DNA of 22,794 bases, taken from IMG/VR virus record IMGVR_UViG_3300043399_000004, positions 1 through 22,794 of that record. One strand, 5' to 3'. The notes under the pieces were generated by a model that was given only the letters and a program-made list of their open reading frames with translations, was not told where the DNA came from and made no database searches. Shown piece by piece: positions 8,580-18,257 of the stretch. The translations under genes and the position numbers were made by a program. This stretch comes from a virus. Each line of letters begins with the position of its first letter. Positions within the stretch are counted from its first letter, which is position 1.

Positions 8580-9026
8580 TTATTCCTTTATGTACGATGT
8601 TTCAAGTTTTTTATAGCCGCGCTTCTCGTAATTTATCGCGGGGCTTTCTGCGCTCAAAGAAGTTTTGACGTATTGTACGCGACCATTCTGCATCATGGTT
8701 TCTGCTTCTTTGTCGAACGCTACCCAAAGCTTTCCACCGATTGTGCTGTTTCTATGCTCTGGCGTGACCCACCATGCCAACTCACACAATTCTGTTAATT
8801 TTGGATACCAAAGATTGGGCAATACGATAGCGGCGAGAAATCCACGCTTGTCATCGTCAATCAAAACAAAGCCGCATCCAGCAATCATCGTCATCAACAA
8901 TTGTTGAATGTGCTGTTCTTCAATCCATCGGTCTTGTTTTGCTAATTCAGAAGGAAATTCTTTGGCGTATTGTTTAACCATTTCCACAAGAATTGGCAAA
9001 TCATATCTTGTCGCTTTTCTTATCAT
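8580..9026 (-). CDS. GNAT-family acetyltransferase in the tail-tip cluster
   Basis: A 148-residue protein with a GNAT-type N-acetyltransferase fold. The start MIRKATRYDLPILVEMVKQ is a typical GNAT N-terminus (strand 1 and helix 1), followed by VLIDDDKRGFLAAIVL (beta 2-3), and the acetyl-CoA binding motif A strand and loop in ELAWWVTPEHRNSTIGGKLW (residues about 90-109). A late YEKRGYKKLETSYIKE matches the usual C-terminal strand pair. A longer ORF begins at 9092, but the ATG at 9026 has GGA upstream and fits the family start. It may modify a tail protein or the host surface or a host target during entry; the substrate is unknown. It sits where many phages encode a lambda gpK-like peptidase. 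It ends AAG GAA TAA, forming the ribosome site of the J-like gene. Confidence 0.8.
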   Translation of the reverse strand: MIRKATRYDLPILVEMVKQYAKEFPSELAKQDRWIEEQHIQQLLMTMIAGCGFVLIDDDKRGFLAAIVLPNLWYPKLTELCELAWWVTPEHRNSTIGGKLWVAFDKEAETMMQNGRVQYVKTSLSAESPAINYEKRGYKKLETSYIKE

Positions 9027-9027
9027 G

Positions 9028-9708
9028 TTATCCGCTGTAGTCGTTTGATGTTGTTGTGGCGCTTTGGTCTGGTGCAATTTCTGTTCCACCACCTGATGAA
9101 GCTACTGGTGTGGCTTGACTACCGCCTATTGGCGCTTTGCCAAAATCAAAATAAGTTGACGCAATGATTTCTACTCTATCCATGCTTGTGTCATTCGGAT
9201 AAAAGTATTGCCATGATTTCTGATTTGTTTTGATGCCAGCGATTCGAGCATCTAATACAGCACGCATGGAAGCACTTGCTATGACGCAAGTTGCTATCCG
9301 AGTCCGCAATTCTTCATTGAAGTCTTCTTGAATTGACATTGAATTGACAATGCCTTGGTATCGCTTGAAAAATTGTGTTGTTGGCGTTGTGATGATTTGA
9401 TTGTTGTCATCTAAAAATCCCCGCCAAATTTCTACAACGCTTCCTTTGAGGTTTTGCCCTAAAACTAATGCGATGTTGTTTGGGTCAATACCCGTCAGAG
9501 AAAGTTTGAAATCTTGACTTGTTGATTTCACATTGCGGTTAATCTCGCTGATACCCAACAAAGAGCCAAGACCTTCAAATGTAATGCCGTTGACCGTTAC
9601 CGGAGCGGCTGCATTACAAAACGTGAGGGTGGAAGAAGGAAGGGTAAGCCTTACAAACTCCGCAAATTTGATGTGCGGAGAATTTAATGCTGTCATAGTT
9701 GTTGCCAT
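9028..9708 (-). CDS. Probable tail tip hub protein (lambda gpL-like position)
   Basis: From the chosen start the protein has 226 residues. An in-frame upstream ATG at 9762 would overlap the previous gene by 50 bases, while ATG 9708 has AGGA 7 bases upstream, so 9708 is preferred. It is beta-rich (KFAEFVRLTLPSSTLTFCNA; TVNGITFEGLGSLLGISEINR) and has a helical middle (LRTRIATCVIASASMRAVLDAR) and a KSWQYFYPNDTSMDRV segment typical of tail-tip proteins that attach below the distal tail. The C-terminus is low complexity (SSGGGTEIAPDQSATTTSND). The gpL-like role is inferred from position between the tape measure and J-like genes. It ends one base before the GNAT gene. Confidence 0.63.
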   Translation of the reverse strand: MATTMTALNSPHIKFAEFVRLTLPSSTLTFCNAAAPVTVNGITFEGLGSLLGISEINRNVKSTSQDFKLSLTGIDPNNIALVLGQNLKGSVVEIWRGFLDDNNQIITTPTTQFFKRYQGIVNSMSIQEDFNEELRTRIATCVIASASMRAVLDARIAGIKTNQKSWQYFYPNDTSMDRVEIIASTYFDFGKAPIGGSQATPVASSGGGTEIAPDQSATTTSNDYSG

Positions 9709-9712
9709 TGTT

Positions 9713-10315
9713 TTATCCTGTGATGTATTCGCGGAAAACGAAATCTTCTGACCATTCGACAAACGCGCCGTCTGTCATAGGATTCAGTTTATACGTTGGG
9801 CATTTTTCTGCAATGACTCGGAATGTGACATTTTTTCCAAGCGTTAAAGTTGTACCGGCTGATGGTGTTCCAATGATAGGACGATGCAATGATAGCGATG
9901 ATCCAGAAGAATCTGCTGTTACTTTGTAAGGGTAATTACCAATTTGAATGAAATCGCCTGCTTTGAACGTACCGTTGGATGTTACAGAAATGATCTGTGC
10001 ATTAGCAGGAGGAGTTGTCGCCAGCACAGCAGAAGTCGCTGTCCCTTGCATTTTTGTAAACCATTGCAAGTTTGCAGAACTGAATGTAATAGTCTGCGGA
10101 ATTGTTCTGTCTGAATTGTCGATTGACTGAATGATGTCGCGCACTTGCGGATAATACAAATAAGCATGAGGCGTTACCGTGAACACGAAAGGAACGGCAG
10201 TAAGGTAATCAGCAGTTGTCGTATATCCGGAGCGTGCTACTTGGATGCCTGTGGTTCTGCGATTGTTGACTTCCATTTTCTGCTGGATGTCAAAGATAGT
10301 TTGAAAGCCAGCCAT
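9713..10315 (-). CDS. Probable tail tip/distal tail protein
   Basis: The 200-residue protein is encoded directly after the tape measure, with a TAATG overlap between the tape measure stop and this start, where siphoviruses place the distal tail or lambda gpM-like tip component. Beta-rich sequences are visible, such as TVTPHAYLYYPQVRDIIQS, IQIGNYPYKVTADSSGSSLSLH and GKNVTFRVIAEKCPTYKL, with a tail end DFVFREYITG. No family signature is definite, so this is a position-based call. The ATG has GAGG 5 bases upstream. The end of the gene forms the AGGA ribosome site of the next gene. Confidence 0.62.
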   Translation of the reverse strand: MAGFQTIFDIQQKMEVNNRRTTGIQVARSGYTTTADYLTAVPFVFTVTPHAYLYYPQVRDIIQSIDNSDRTIPQTITFSSANLQWFTKMQGTATSAVLATTPPANAQIISVTSNGTFKAGDFIQIGNYPYKVTADSSGSSLSLHRPIIGTPSAGTTLTLGKNVTFRVIAEKCPTYKLNPMTDGAFVEWSEDFVFREYITG

Positions 10316-12234
10316 TATGACCTCGTCCTAGAATTTGAAATGTTCTTTGTGGCATACTGATTGGCAGCCCATACAGCACGGCTACTTCCGTACAATCTAT
10401 CTTCAAAAGATTTTGTATCAATTGCGTCGATATAATTGTTTGTAACGTATGTGGTGCCGCCCATATCTCCAAGTTTATTATTTGGGATAATTGTTCCATT
10501 ACGTTGTGGCACAAACATTTCGGGGCCACGTTCCCCAACAATATACGGCGTATCTGAAAAAACATCTCCACCTTCTGCGCGAGGCGCAGGAGGGCCAGCA
10601 ATAAACGGGGATGTTCCTGGAGTTATCATTGGGCTAACAATTGCACCAATAGCCATTGAAAACAATTTTGAAACCATCAATTGCATTTGAATTCGTATTA
10701 AATCTGCAATAATTGCTCTAGTAAAATCTGCAAAATTTAATTTACCCGTCATAACAAACGCGGTCAAAGCATTTGTCATTCCAGAAAAAAGAGCGTCGAC
10801 AGATGAGGATACTGTTTCGGCAACGTTGATGGATTCAAATTGGAATTTTTGATAAGACGCTAACAAACCGCCTTCAAAAGATTGTGACAAAGTTTGGTTT
10901 TGTGTAATGGCATCGGTAATTTTGGTTTTGTACGCTTCGGCCAATTCGTTAACTTTTTCAATTTCTTGGTCAATTTGTTCGATAACGCGATTGTCTGCAC
11001 CAGCAGCAACGGCTTCTTTGCGTTTTTCTTCTAGCTTGGCTACTTCCGCAGACCGCTGTTTATCAAGTTGATACATGGCTTGATAAACTTGCGCTTGGTT
11101 CTGCGTCAGGTAAAGCATTTGCGTTTGAACGTTAATGCCTTCTACTTGCATACGTTGCTGGTTATCAAATTGGATTGATATAAACCGCAGCGTTTCCAAT
11201 TGTTTTAGCAAATTGGCTAATTTTGTATCAGCCGATTTGTCTTCATAAGGCGTAACTTTTCGACCAGCAAATCCATTGCTTGATTCGGTTGGTGACCCAC
11301 CTTTTAATGCGTTTTGAACTTCTTTAAGATTTTGGAGAAAACGTTCATTGTTTTCGGAACCAAGATTTTTTAATGTGTCCCAAAAACTGCCGCCCGTCAT
11401 TAAAGATGCAGCAGCAGTATTAAGATTTGCTAATGATGCAACCGCCCATTTAATGCTTTCAACAACAAACGTAATAGTTGCAACCACGCCATCAAACGCT
11501 GCTTTAATTACTTTGCCAACAATTTCGGCTGTTCCACCAAAATCCTTCATTTGGATTTCGGCAAATTTAAGAATAGGCAACAACGCTTCGCTTAGCGTCA
11601 ATTTAACTTGGGTAATAATACCTTCCAGTTTTTCCATGTACGCAGCAAGTTGTTGCACGGCTGCGACTTGTTTGTCTGTTGCTTGCGCGCCATTGTTTAA
11701 TTCGCTGGCAAATCTGGTTATATCAACGCCGCGCATTGCTCGACCAAACACATCAAACGCAATGGCGTTTCGCGTTAACGGGTCTTCAATTTGCGCCAGA
11801 CTGCTTGCTGTTTTGGATAACAAGTCTTCTGTTGACAGCGTTTCCAAATCTTTTAGGGATATGCCAATACGAGCGAACGCTTCTTGTGCTTGCTTGGAAC
11901 CAGACGCAGCTTCGTCAACTTTATTTGAAAATTGCCCAAGCAATCGACCGGCGTTATCAAAAGAGCCGCCAGCTTTTTCCAATGCTTTGCTAATATCGAG
12001 GATGCCGCGTACCGATACCTGATATGCGTCTGCCGCGTCACTCATTTGGTCTGCAAATTGCAAAACTTTCATTGTTGTGGCAACAAATGCCGTGCCAACA
12101 ATGGCTATACCAGCCCGCAGCTTAACAAAGTCGGCTTCTAATTCTTTAGTTTTTTGCTTTGCGCGGTCAATGCCTTGCACAAATTCCGTGCTGCTTAAAC
12201 CTAGTATTACGCCAAGACGAGCAATGTTTGCCAT
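10315..12234 (-). CDS. Tail tape measure protein
   Basis: This 639-residue protein is the tail length ruler and assembly scaffold, and is probably ejected during infection. The N-terminal region has a coiled-coil-like helix (FVQGIDRAKQKTKELEADFV) followed by a hydrophobic segment IAIVGTAFVATTMKVL. There is another hydrophobic stretch near residues 250-270 (VVATITFVVESIKWAVASLA) and one near 545. The central region is charged and helical (QLDKQRSAEVAKLEEKRKEAV). The late segment GERGPEMFVPQ (from residue 567) is common to phage tape measures. Following the chaperone pair and preceding the tip genes is the standard place. If the tail rises about 0.15 nm per residue, the tail would be near 95 nm; this is a rough inference. 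Start has AAAGGA 5 bases upstream. Confidence 0.94.
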   Translation of the reverse strand: MANIARLGVILGLSSTEFVQGIDRAKQKTKELEADFVKLRAGIAIVGTAFVATTMKVLQFADQMSDAADAYQVSVRGILDISKALEKAGGSFDNAGRLLGQFSNKVDEAASGSKQAQEAFARIGISLKDLETLSTEDLLSKTASSLAQIEDPLTRNAIAFDVFGRAMRGVDITRFASELNNGAQATDKQVAAVQQLAAYMEKLEGIITQVKLTLSEALLPILKFAEIQMKDFGGTAEIVGKVIKAAFDGVVATITFVVESIKWAVASLANLNTAAASLMTGGSFWDTLKNLGSENNERFLQNLKEVQNALKGGSPTESSNGFAGRKVTPYEDKSADTKLANLLKQLETLRFISIQFDNQQRMQVEGINVQTQMLYLTQNQAQVYQAMYQLDKQRSAEVAKLEEKRKEAVAAGADNRVIEQIDQEIEKVNELAEAYKTKITDAITQNQTLSQSFEGGLLASYQKFQFESINVAETVSSSVDALFSGMTNALTAFVMTGKLNFADFTRAIIADLIRIQMQLMVSKLFSMAIGAIVSPMITPGTSPFIAGPPAPRAEGGDVFSDTPYIVGERGPEMFVPQRNGTIIPNNKLGDMGGTTYVTNNYIDAIDTKSFEDRLYGSSRAVWAANQYATKNISNSRTRS

Positions 12235-12236
12235 GT

Positions 12237-12584
12237 TTATCCTTTGAACAAGACCTCATTAGGCTTTGAACGCGCTTTGGCAAACGCCATAAGGCTTTTT
12301 GTTACTTGCGCCCTTTTGTCTTGTTCTGTCAGAGGCGGATAAAGGTAATCATACGCGGACGGAATTATTGCTTGCAGTTTATACGGAGTTGCGCCTTTGG
12401 GCAACATCTTATTGAATTGCCCTGCCGTAAGCGTGCCAAGCACTTGCAACAATCCAAGATTGCCAATTGCGCCATCATGGTACATGACGCATATATCCCC
12501 AAACGTTTCTTCGTCTACGGCAGAAGGGTCGGTACCATGAGCCGTCAAATATGCTTTTACTTGACGGCGCACCGACCCAATTAT
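12237..12584 (-). CDS. T portion of the frameshifted G-T tail chaperone
   Basis: This reading frame supplies the C-terminal 115 residues of G-T, reached by a -1 slip at 12590-12584; the full fusion would have 270 residues (155 from G). After slipping, translation continues IIGSVRRQVKAYLTAHGTDP and runs to TAA at 12237. An isolated ORF can be opened at GTG 12572, but it has no suitable ribosome site (the nearest purine run is about 14 bases away) and that codon lies inside the frameshift stem, so independent start is unlikely. In lambda the T part binds the tape measure and the tube protein. The stop codon and its AAAGGA form the ribosome site of the tape measure gene. It should be annotated as a joined CDS with the upstream frame. 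Confidence 0.85.
   Translation of the reverse strand: MIGSVRRQVKAYLTAHGTDPSAVDEETFGDICVMYHDGAIGNLGLLQVLGTLTAGQFNKMLPKGATPYKLQAIIPSAYDYLYPPLTEQDKRAQVTKSLMAFAKARSKPNEVLFKG
12526..12578 (-). promoter_or_regulatory. Two-tier frameshift-stimulating stem-loop
   Basis: Starting 5 bases after the slippery heptamer, GGGTCGGT (12578-12571) pairs perfectly with ACCGACCC (12533-12526), and inside it GCCGTCAA (12568-12561) pairs with TTGACGGC (12548-12541). The two 8-bp helices are separated by a 2-base and a 7-base internal loop, and the hairpin loop is 12 bases. The position and strength fit a frameshift stimulator. Confidence 0.85.
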
Positions 12585-13048
12585 TTTCCCCTGCGTTCCT
12601 TGTAATCTGGGGAGATTGTTTTGGCAATGTTTTCCATCACTTCCAATTGAATGGCGAACGGGAACAATTCGTCAATCATGTCGTAGGTAATGGTGGCCAT
12701 GTCAAATTCTTTGTCTGCCGGAACCAGCAATTTAAACATTTCCACAATGCGTTTTTCGGCCAATGCCTTTTGCTTGGCTAAATCACGAAGCGATTTTCCT
12801 TCAATAATGTAATCGTCTTCCAACACTTCAACACCGCCGGCTTTCAAAACTTCTGCATCCAAGCCCGACGTAAGGTTTTGGTAGTGTTTTTCAATTAATT
12901 CTGGGGCTGGCTCTTTAAGACGTTCGGCCATTGCTTCCATTTCAGCCGTAAGCGGCACTTTGACCTTAAACGTATGGCCGTTTAATTCAAACGTGCGGAT
13001 ACGGAACGCGCCGCTTTCAAACCCACCCAATGCTTGTGCCAATGACAT
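12581..13048 (-). CDS. Tail assembly chaperone G (upstream frame)
   Basis: A 155-residue protein in the position of lambda gpG, a chaperone that keeps the tape measure protein soluble during tail assembly. It is soluble, acidic and helical (LTAEMEAMAERLKEPAPELIEKHY; LAKQKALAEKRIVEMFKLLVPADKEFDMATITYDMIDELFPFAIQ). The start at 13048 has AAAGGAC 5 bases upstream. The final codons are AGG GGA AAA TAA; the heptamer G GGA AAA and a large hairpin just past the stop create a -1 frameshift signal that makes a longer G-T product. Lambda's equivalent heptamer is GGGAAAG. The family name is by analogy of size, place and frameshift; the sequence does not closely resemble lambda gpG that I can see. Confidence 0.85.
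   Translation of the reverse strand: MSLAQALGGFESGAFRIRTFELNGHTFKVKVPLTAEMEAMAERLKEPAPELIEKHYQNLTSGLDAEVLKAGGVEVLEDDYIIEGKSLRDLAKQKALAEKRIVEMFKLLVPADKEFDMATITYDMIDELFPFAIQLEVMENIAKTISPDYKERRGK
12584..12590 (-). other. Slippery heptamer for -1 frameshifting
   Basis: The sequence reads G GGA AAA in the zero frame of the G gene, followed directly by the TAA stop. This is the X XXY YYZ form, in which both tRNAs can re-pair after a one-base slip to GGG AAA. The next codon in the new frame is ATA and the frame stays open to 12237. Confidence 0.9.
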
Positions 13049-13062
13049 ATCTTGTCCTTTCC

Positions 13063-13602
13063 CTATTTAATCTTTGCGCGCCTTGCGGCACGCGCTTTAT
13101 AACGCTCTAGCTGCGTTTTTAACTCGTCACCTAATGAGTCTACCACGACAGCCTTGTTTGCCTCCAGAGCAGGCCTTAAAAATGGTTTGGCGGCCACTTT
13201 AGCCGTGCCAAACTCCATTGCCACGGCGCGAGCATCGGAATTGATGCCAACTTGTTTAATGTCGGACTTTTTATTCTTTTTGTTGAAAAACGCTGTTTTT
13301 TTCAACTTCCAACCGGGCGCAGTAGTAACAGACGCAATAACGGCATCCGTCCTGTCCACGTATTTGGAACGCCTATCCTTGCCCGTAGGCTTTCTGGCTT
13401 CCACTTGCAATGACGCTGCCAACGCGCCCGTGTCGCTAGGTGCGCGCAACTTTGCATCTACCAATACAGGTTGCATGGCATTTTTCATGGCGTTGCGCAT
13501 CATTTTGCGCGCATCTTTTTCGCCAAAATCTTCAACAATTTCGTTGACCAAATCTTCAAATTCTTGGAAACCCTCCCAACCGAAAGAGATTTTGGTAGCC
13601 AT
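13063..13602 (-). CDS. HK97 gp10-like neck/tail completion protein
   Basis: This 179-residue protein has the pattern of the HK97-gp10 family: an early helix EFEDLVNEIVEDFG, the segment MMRNAMKNAMQPVLVDAKLRAPSDTGALAASL (residues 35-66), and a late AMEFGTAKVAAKPFLRPALEANK. These proteins act in neck or tail completion and are normally encoded before the tail terminator and tube. Here the gene lies after the tube gene, which is unusual. The C-terminus is very basic (YKARAARRAKIK), and an inserted lysine-rich stretch FFNKKNKKSDIK interrupts the middle. It ends with TAG 14 bases before the next start. The family call is good; the exact role in this phage is inferred. Confidence 0.82.
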   Translation of the reverse strand: MATKISFGWEGFQEFEDLVNEIVEDFGEKDARKMMRNAMKNAMQPVLVDAKLRAPSDTGALAASLQVEARKPTGKDRRSKYVDRTDAVIASVTTAPGWKLKKTAFFNKKNKKSDIKQVGINSDARAVAMEFGTAKVAAKPFLRPALEANKAVVVDSLGDELKTQLERYKARAARRAKIK

Positions 13603-13603
13603 G

Positions 13604-13837
13604 TTAACGTTTCTCGATTAGCTTCCTATAAATTGCGTTATTTAAAGCAATAACATAGTCAGCAATTTCATCGGGGCTCATAGACGGGGCGTGACGTTCT
13701 GCCATTTTATAAGCCAAATTGATTCCGGCAATGCGTTGTTGCTGAAACCCAAACCAGTTTTTGTTACCGCTATTGGCTTGCGTAACCAAATAGTTTAGCA
13801 ACGCTTCCGAATTGTTTTGTGTCATATCAATGTCCAT
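13604..13837 (-). CDS. Small protein of unknown function between tube and gp10-like genes
   Basis: A 77-residue product that I do not recognise. It is a soluble, mostly helical protein (NNSEALLNYLVTQANS, IAGINLAYKMAERHAP, DEIADYVIALNNAIYRKLIEKR). The listed ATG at 13837 sits right after a strong hairpin and has no clear ribosome site. An in-frame ATG at 13825 has GGA 7 bases upstream and is equally plausible, giving 73 residues. It ends 1 base before the gp10-like start. In this location it may be a small tail chaperone or neck accessory, but that is inference from position only. Confidence 0.6.
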   Translation of the reverse strand: MDIDMTQNNSEALLNYLVTQANSGNKNWFGFQQQRIAGINLAYKMAERHAPSMSPDEIADYVIALNNAIYRKLIEKR

Positions 13838-15846: not shown

Positions 15847-16869
15847 TTAGGCTGCGCTTGCACGAACACCCGCGAACGGGTCACGGACTGTAGAAGCAAC
15901 TCGCTTCTCGGCGTACATAGTAATGTAACCGGGGGCGGTTTGTTCAAACATTTGAACGCTAATTTCTTCCACGTCAGCAATTGTCAGGAAACGATTCCAG
16001 TTAGCCAGATAAATCGGGAAGTCCGCGCTCATGTACGGGTTCGGAATTACAGGCCAGCCAAAGACCGAGCCAAGTGCGCCCGCGTCATTAGGTTCGCCAA
16101 TGTCGATAAACAACGGCATACCAGCCGTGTCTTTCAGTTCGCGCAGCGTTTGAATCATTGCCGGAGTCATTTGCCATGCGGTGCCAGGCAGCGACCAATA
16201 TTGAGCGGGAAGAGCGTTAGCAATAGCCGCTACCTTTGCATAAGTAATGGTTGCGCCGGCAAGGCTTACAGTAGCGAGAGTGTGAACACCATTGGTAATA
16301 GCAGTACCGCTTGTGCCGTAAGCTGCTGTTGAACCGCTATTGTAAGAATCCAGTCCGCGTAGGCCACTCGTGCCACCCGTTGCAGTAGTTGTTGAACCCG
16401 ATTGGTCATCGTTAACCGCCATTGACAGACCTTCTTGCTGGCTAAATTCCAGCATCATGTCTTCAACCAGCGATGCATCCAGACCATTAATGTCATCCAG
16501 CGCAGCAACACGCACCGGCAATTGAGCCGTGATAACGCGTGTAGGCATTTGCCAAAAAGCCGTAGCGGTGTCAGGCGTGCCGCTGTTAGGCGTAAACGTG
16601 TAACCCCAAGGGTTGGTTTGATTGGTTGCGTTACCAGTTTTTGCAACAAATTGCACAGCCGAAGAATCGGGCGCTGCAATTGCACGCGCGCCCATACGGA
16701 ACGGGTTGGCATAACGTAATGTGGCGAAGGCTTCATCAAAATAAGTGCGACCACCAACATTCAGACCAGAACCAGTCAGAGCCGATGCTTCACGCAGGTC
16801 AATGGTTACTTTCCGGTTTTCGGTGAAAGCTTGTTTGATGCCTTCCAGAATTTTTTGAGTTGCACTCAT
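15847..16869 (-). CDS. Second capsid protein paralogue (HK97 fold) without delta domain
   Basis: This 340-residue protein is clearly related to its upstream neighbour. Shared blocks in the same order include EASALTGSG, GGRT, KTGN, WGY, AALDDI-GL, EFSQ-EG-SM, DQ-GSTTT, GLRGL-SY, LP-QYWS and PGYIT--EKR-AS-V-DPF. The matched core starts at residue 27 rather than 104, so the coiled-coil delta region is absent; the N-terminus MSATQKILEGIKQAFTENRK is one short helix. It may be a vertex (pentamer) or minor shell protein, as T4 gp24 is to gp23, or a variant major capsid subunit; function is inferred. The start has AGAGGAC 9 bases upstream. The divergence between the pair is high, so the duplication is old rather than a recent copy. 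Confidence 0.88.
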   Translation of the reverse strand: MSATQKILEGIKQAFTENRKVTIDLREASALTGSGLNVGGRTYFDEAFATLRYANPFRMGARAIAAPDSSAVQFVAKTGNATNQTNPWGYTFTPNSGTPDTATAFWQMPTRVITAQLPVRVAALDDINGLDASLVEDMMLEFSQQEGLSMAVNDDQSGSTTTATGGTSGLRGLDSYNSGSTAAYGTSGTAITNGVHTLATVSLAGATITYAKVAAIANALPAQYWSLPGTAWQMTPAMIQTLRELKDTAGMPLFIDIGEPNDAGALGSVFGWPVIPNPYMSADFPIYLANWNRFLTIADVEEISVQMFEQTAPGYITMYAEKRVASTVRDPFAGVRASAA

Positions 16870-16897: not shown

Positions 16898-16916
16898 GGG
16901 GGGCATAAAGCCCCCC
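16898..16916 (-). terminator. GC-rich hairpin between the two capsid genes
   Basis: A perfect 7-bp inverted repeat reads GGGGGGC-TTTAT-GCCCCCC on the minus strand, just after the major capsid stop and 28 bases before the second capsid gene. The bases after it (TTCTCCCATCC) are only weakly T-rich, so it looks more like a partial terminator, an RNase-blocking 3' end or an attenuator than a full terminator. It would allow high expression of the first capsid gene and lower expression of the downstream genes. Confidence 0.55.
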
Positions 16917-16922
16917 ATTCTT

Positions 16923-18257
16923 TTAGGCTGCGGTAGCGGTCGAGCGGTAACGAATGATGCTGAACGGGTCAACAACAGACGATGCCAGACGCTTTTCACC
17001 AAAGAAGGTGATGTAGCCAGGCAGGGTTTGGTCATAGCGACGCAGAACCATGTTCAAACGGTCAACAATGGTGTGGCCACGTTGGAAGTCACCGAAATAA
17101 ATCGGGTACTTGCTAACTTCACCAGCTTCTGCACCGGCACCGACAGGGCTGTCAACGTAGTTGTTAACAACAACGTCAAAGCCAAGCAGCTTGCCAACAA
17201 TACCTTCGGTAACCAGCGGAGCCATACGTTCAAACACCGGCGTGCCGTTGTCATCTTTCAGACCACGCAGACCAGCAAGAGCCAGCGGGCTCATCATGAA
17301 CTTATTGCCATTGCTCCAGTATTGTTGCGGGAGCGAGTGGATGAAAGTCACAATGTCTTCAAACGTGATGAGGTTGGCCGAACCATTGCCGTTGGTGGTT
17401 AGCTGGTCGTAGGTAGCGATATCATGCATACCATCCGAAGCAGCCGTACCAGACGAACCGAAAGCAGCCGTGCTGATAACGCCGCCAGCGTAAACGCTGT
17501 TAGCGCCGCCGTAGCTGTTCAGACCGCGCAGGCCATCGGTAGCACCAGTGTCGGTCGTGGTTGAGCCAGCTTGGTCGTTGTTCTGCACCATCGAAGCACC
17601 TTCGACTTGCGAGAATTCTGCCAGCATATCGTCAACAACGTTGGCTTCCAAACCATCAATATCGTCCAAAGCGGCGGTACGAATCGGGAATTGAACGTTA
17701 ACGTCCTTCAGATTCAGTTGCCAAATGCTGGTGTTTTCGGTGGTTGCCGAGCCGTTGTTCTGGATGGCATAGCCCCATGCAGCACCAGCGTTGCCGGTCT
17801 TAGCGCGGAATTGATAAGTAGCGCCATCGGTAGCCACGTTGCGCGACAGACCACGCATTGGGTTAATCAGACGCAGCTTGTGGAACACGGGGTCGTAAGC
17901 AGTACGGCCACCAATGCCAGCACCCGAACCCGTGAGGGCAGAGGCTTCTTGCAGGTAGGCGGTGCGCTGGTCTTCCGATTCAAACAGTTTGATTTCCTTT
18001 TCAGCGCGTGCGCCGTTGCGGAAAGCATTCAGTTGTTCTTTGACCATTTTGTTCACATCAGCGCGAACAGATTTTTCTTGCTTGATGATTGCGGGTGCTT
18101 GAACCGATGCAACCTTGGCTTCCAGAGCAGCAACTTGCTCTACAAACTCGGCTTTAGCGGCTTCAACTTCTGCATGAGCAGCAGCTTGCACTTCTTCAAT
18201 CTTGCTTGCTTGGGCAGCTTCAATAGCTTCCAGCTTTTCGATGATAATTTGCGACAT
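16923..18257 (-). CDS. Major capsid protein with delta-like N-terminal domain (HK97 fold)
   Basis: This 444-residue protein is the probable main shell protein. Residues 1 to about 55 form an alanine/glutamate-rich coiled coil (AAHAEVEAAKAEFVEQVAALE), and the stretch to about 100 is charged; together they match the removable delta (scaffold) domain of HK97-type capsid proteins, consistent with the protease gene just upstream. The HK97-fold core begins near EASALTGSG (104-112) and includes AALDDIDGLEANVVDDMLAEF, a GLRGLNSYGG loop, HSLPQQYWS, and the terminal LPGYITFFGEKRLASSVVDPF block. If cleaved near residue 100, about 340 residues would remain. The start follows an AAGGAATAATC ribosome site that overlaps the protease stop. 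It is followed by a strong hairpin and by a paralogue. Confidence 0.94.
   Translation of the reverse strand: MSQIIIEKLEAIEAAQASKIEEVQAAAHAEVEAAKAEFVEQVAALEAKVASVQAPAIIKQEKSVRADVNKMVKEQLNAFRNGARAEKEIKLFESEDQRTAYLQEASALTGSGAGIGGRTAYDPVFHKLRLINPMRGLSRNVATDGATYQFRAKTGNAGAAWGYAIQNNGSATTENTSIWQLNLKDVNVQFPIRTAALDDIDGLEANVVDDMLAEFSQVEGASMVQNNDQAGSTTTDTGATDGLRGLNSYGGANSVYAGGVISTAAFGSSGTAASDGMHDIATYDQLTTNGNGSANLITFEDIVTFIHSLPQQYWSNGNKFMMSPLALAGLRGLKDDNGTPVFERMAPLVTEGIVGKLLGFDVVVNNYVDSPVGAGAEAGEVSKYPIYFGDFQRGHTIVDRLNMVLRRYDQTLPGYITFFGEKRLASSVVDPFSIIRYRSTATAA

Follow-up and report, generated by a model that had tools for sequence, protein, structure and literature searches.

A conserved stop-adjacent slip site and hairpin point to −1 frameshifting in the putative tail chaperone genes of an aquatic phage family

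A programmed −1 ribosomal frameshift almost certainly makes two proteins, the putative tail assembly chaperone G and the longer fusion G-T, from one gene of the virus analysed here. The DNA under study (the window; 22,794 nt) is an IMG/VR virus contig (IMGVR_UViG_3300043399_000004). The architecture of the locus, its conservation, the covariation of its RNA stem and the missing start of T can all be read from the sequence, and some 150 virus contigs that encode T relatives, together with the cultured phage P19250A, have the same arrangement.

The genes concerned lie on the minus strand in the order terminase, portal, protease, major capsid (PF05065), adaptor-like genes, an HK97-gp10-like gene (13063–13602), G, T, tape measure and tail-tip genes. 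G (12581–13048, minus strand) encodes 155 amino acids in the zero frame, and T (12237–12587, minus strand) is its −1 extension, running from the slip lysine (12587) to a TAA at 12239–12237. The tape-measure gene (10315–12234, minus strand; PF09718, 1.7e-16, and PHROG tape-measure families) begins with an ATG at 12234, immediately 3′ of the end of T (12237). An acetyltransferase-like gene (phrog_1249; 8580–9092, minus strand) lies within the tail module and overlaps one of its genes (9028–9762). Another gene (15847–16869, minus strand) adjoins the capsid gene (16923–18257), yet its own C-terminal half matches major head protein profiles; its product is perhaps an additional coat or decoration protein. 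The major capsid gene is separated from its neighbour by a perfect GC hairpin (GGGGGGCTTTATGCCCCCC, minus strand; 16898–16916) that, on the plus strand, is followed by a T-rich run, giving it a terminator-like appearance.

No curated family in Pfam or PHROGs matched G or T, single relatives of G gave weak and mutually incoherent matches to both collections, and a search of Rfam gave no match. G, for which 25 relatives were aligned, was modelled with a pLDDT of 82, and its nearest solved structures were YqbN (3KLU, Z 5.8), 5IR0 (Z 5.8) and the HK97 tail assembly chaperone (2OB9, Z 5.6 over 102 residues), followed by 3FGX (Z 4.2) and then by neighbours that drop to 3.2; Foldseek with the same model returned no significant E-values. 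Of these close neighbours, HK97 2OB9 and YqbN 3KLU share only 11% and 6% identity with G, respectively, and the likeness is one of fold alone. The model fits a tail chaperone without being proof of one; its resemblance to HK97 and YqbN-type chaperones is weak (Z < 6). The T model (pTM 0.37) was too poor for a structure search.

At its 3′ end, G reads AGG GGA AAA TAA (minus strand), which contains the slippery heptamer G_GGA_AAA (12584–12590) with the zero-frame stop TAA (12581–12583) directly 3′ of it. Five bases (TAATT, 12579–12583), the stop included, separate the heptamer from a two-tier hairpin that spans 12578–12526 and consists of an outer stem (GGGTCGGT, 12571–12578, pairing with ACCGACCC, 12526–12533) and an inner stem (GCCGTCAA, 12561–12568, pairing with TTGACGGC, 12541–12548). 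The first-pass annotation had placed heptamer, stop, five-base gap and hairpin at these positions, had the −1 frame open from the slip to 12237 with the tape measure next, and had given the junction peptide as RRGKIIGSVRR; direct reading and translation (junction RRGK|IIGSVRR) agree on every point. Its description of the hairpin as two perfect helices of 8+8 bp needs amendment: the arms are present, yet the predicted helices run longer (roughly 11 pairs in the inner tier and 10 in the outer), and relatives retain the inner tier only in part. The segment 12600–12520 folds at −38 kcal/mol, compared with −20.2 ± 3.0 kcal/mol for shuffled sequences (z −5.85, 0/200), no other 60-nt segment on either strand of the window is as stable as the hairpin, and none of 500 recodings that preserve the T protein was equally stable (z −3.8). 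Among the 20 coding-strand open reading frames scanned, this was the only canonical in-frame heptamer touching a stop. An in-frame TTTAAAT at 13646, within a small unassigned gene (13604–13837, minus strand) and 11 codons before its stop, is probably a chance occurrence.

Searching viral contigs with T of the window returned 68 contigs that encode relatives (59–75% identity); these T matches (L002–L069) and the window form clade A. In phage records, a DNA search found no match and a protein search found P19250A, a cultured phage of freshwater Methylophilaceae (PMC8163748), as the sole match, with 39% identity in G and 40% in T; a methylotroph is a plausible host for the window's virus. T of P19250A retrieved 80 further contigs, and clade B comprises P19250A (L070) and L071–L150. 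By alignment search, encoding contigs number at least 558; the 80 retained from this search include some that had already been found. G alone as a query found no relatives in viral_contigs, and no T relatives were found in genome_contigs.

Protein conservation locates the change of frame. Across the aligned relatives, without exception, the homology of T sets in at the slip lysine (K1), which is invariant, as is the last lysine of G in the alignment with 25 relatives. At 23 loci (13 in clade A and 10 in clade B), the T frame is closed by a stop one codon upstream of the slip lysine, so that the two frames overlap at the slip site only. Several loci have no start codon in the first 25 T codons, and no Shine–Dalgarno sequence was found before T-frame starts near the junction in relatives or, as the first-pass annotation had observed for T, in the window. 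That annotation had also foreseen that T would be filed as a separate hypothetical gene, which is how the P19250A record presents it: both frames are annotated as separate hypothetical genes, and T starts at an ATG 13 codons after the slip lysine.

The outer stem has been maintained while its sequence changed. In clade A (scored on alignment A2), columns 18–60 (AU, UA, GC, GU) and 15–63 (GC, AU, GU) covary, and in both arms of the stem these columns fall on third codon positions. The outer stem has 15 double-changed cells compared with 4.0 ± 1.6 after shuffling, and 90% of its cells are paired, compared with at most 39% when the arms are slid. On a tree built from the T sequence behind the hairpin, paired columns never changed in opposite directions, and well-supported independent double changes were few, below the number that a significance test needs. 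Relatives conserve the window's inner tier in part and not base for base; in many clade A relatives, the outer stem is instead longer by about four pairs. Clade B has a 10-bp stem of unrelated sequence at nearly the same spacing, with 99.7% of cells paired and compensatory changes of its own. Hairpins were more stable than protein-preserving recodings in most relatives, and the recoding tests in both clades always pointed in the same direction (z −1.4 to −4.5).

Two further RNA signals were considered. A pseudoknot, which the first-pass annotation had proposed to look for, did not emerge: a 5-bp scan found no conserved helix between loop and downstream sequence in clade A, where the best fixed-position helix occurred in 32 of the 80 sequences, and in clade B it found one shared candidate helix, located in conserved sequence. 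A 9-base complement in the window (GCGCCGTCA/TGATGGCGC) did not turn up in the scan as a helix common to relatives. An upstream Shine–Dalgarno stimulator does not belong to the conserved site; the window has AAGGA, yet such a motif occurs in only 17 of the 72 clade A and 11 of the 30 clade B distinct sequences.

The slip site itself differs between the clades. Among the 74 distinct sites of clade A, 61 were GGGAAAG and 9 GGGAAAA (that is, GGGAAAR in 70/74), with two GGTAAAG, one GGAAAAG and one GGGAAAC, and a stop followed directly in 69 of the 74 (TAA 50, TAG 19, TGA 0). With the covarying outer stem, these counts answer in the affirmative the earlier question of whether heptamer and stem are conserved in relatives. 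Four clade A loci (L187, L191, L209 and L219) have broken heptamers (G_GTA_AAG or G_GAA_AAG) in which A_AAG and the stop remain. Clade B lacks the canonical heptamer altogether: 40 of its 41 distinct sites were N_TCA_AAR and one was GCA_AAG (the site of P19250A reads GTCAAAGTAG), and TAA or TAG followed directly in all 41. Since the two-tRNA heptamer is absent there, slippage in clade B would be weaker or of another type. The minimum common to both clades is A_AAR, a stop, a few bases and a hairpin.

Other explanations for the locus fare poorly against these observations. T might be a gene in its own right whose translation re-initiates, coupled to the end of G, at the GTG at 12572 or at a later start; the window does have this GTG 9 bases after the G stop, and the annotation of P19250A uses a later ATG for T. 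We consider this very unlikely, given that there is no Shine–Dalgarno sequence, that relatives have not retained the GTG and that protein conservation reaches the slip lysine even where the first 25 codons contain no start; re-initiation would also leave the conserved slip motif and stem unexplained. That the hairpin serves mainly as a transcription terminator or RNA-processing element setting the dose of T or of downstream genes is highly improbable. Its great stability and its location at a gene end would suit such a role, but no T run follows it, a terminator scan did not report it, and its place is within the conserved coding sequence of T, at a constant distance from the slip site, with two sequence forms that are unrelated to each other.

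Polymerase slippage is generally known to need longer runs than are present here. The site is a short G and A run (GGGGAAAA), which could in principle invite transcriptional slippage, but its runs are of three or four bases only, clade B has AAA alone, and a hairpin at ribosomal spacing would have no explanation. Because some 150 independent contigs and a cultured phage all show this frame break, sequencing error is excluded. A change of frame by either of these routes is therefore extremely improbable.

We infer from the preferred reading, programmed ribosomal frameshifting, how the locus would work. Most ribosomes would halt at the TAA and release the putative chaperone G. On meeting the hairpin, a minority would slip one base back on G_GGA_AAA (from GGA AAA to GGG AAA) and translate T as well, producing the fusion G-T. 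By analogy with lambda, G may coat the tape measure, with G-T recruiting tail-tube subunits. Part of the slippage may take place late, in competition with release factor, and the full heptamer in clade A would add the usual two-tRNA route. The slippage itself, its rate and these roles of the two proteins are what the conserved arrangement leads us to expect.

The adjacent stop looks selected in the sequences of both clades. The T valine after the slip lysine is GTA in 60/64 clade A and 40/40 clade B sequences, compared with 27–28% of valine codons elsewhere in the genes of the two clades, and GTA followed by A or G spells the zero-frame stop. As to the part of the stop in the slip, the observation is this codon bias towards keeping it. 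In six clade A relatives, the stop is displaced (by 24 nt in L032 and by 36 nt in L155, L156, L169, L215 and L227) while heptamer and hairpin are retained, so the adjacent stop is favoured and not required; these relatives are natural controls for its role. Given that only A_AAR, the stop and the hairpin are common to both clades, the site may act as a −1 ‘shifty stop’, in which lysyl-tRNA slips from the P site with the stop in the A site and the hairpin holding the ribosome. We put this forward tentatively, as a possibility that is on balance somewhat doubtful. If it is true, the chaperone ratio would depend on termination efficiency (the stops used, TAA or TAG, are RF1 codons), and the two-tRNA heptamer would be optional, to which the sites of the P19250A clade point.

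Each separate feature has precedents in other systems. The window shares with lambda G/G-T a GGGAAAR site where G ends, a T read in the −1 frame and a tape-measure gene that comes next. The first-pass annotation had cited GGGAAAG as the lambda slip site, which is correct, although the lambda stop lies 15 nt after the heptamer, whereas that of the window is immediate. No similarity between the lambda and window proteins was found by families or tblastn. Among annotated cases in actinobacteriophages, the mean distance from slip to stop is 26 nt (PMC10885494), and by this measure and that of lambda a distance of zero is short. Slippage on an A_AAG tetramer is known in bacteria: IS1222 uses G_CGA_AAG (PMC5009743) and resembles clade B in that only the A_AAG part of the heptamer is used, but its site lies in a transposase gene of an insertion sequence, and the window has the full heptamer. 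Stops as the natural next codon occur at the −1 sites of Rous sarcoma virus (RSV) and barley yellow dwarf virus (BYDV), where, as in the window, a slippery heptamer is followed directly by a stop and then by RNA structure; the introduction of a stop at the slip site of HIV-1 showed that ribosomes can shift frame while this codon occupies the A site (PMC4373837). RSV and BYDV rely on eukaryotic ribosomes and release factor, unlike the window, and in RSV, frameshifting is unaffected by changing its stop.

On these sequence grounds, the aquatic phage family is almost certainly an unannotated case of the lambda G/G-T kind. It has two overlapping open reading frames, the second in the −1 frame without a start of its own, directly before a tape-measure gene (PF09718), and an in-frame X_XXY_YYZ heptamer near the end of G that is present in the window and absent from clade B (N_TCA_AAG). 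The lambda-type reading of the first-pass annotation is upheld by the conserved heptamer, stop and stem, the onset of T homology at the slip codon and the tape measure next to T; its remark on the stop directly after the heptamer also extends to both clades. The finding corrects the annotation of a large aquatic phage group, whose G and T have been recorded as hypothetical proteins with no relation to each other. In addition, nature offers sites for comparison that have a heptamer with an adjacent stop, a hexamer with one, or a heptamer whose stop comes later, and these make it possible to test whether −1 slippage in bacteria occurs when the A site already holds a stop.
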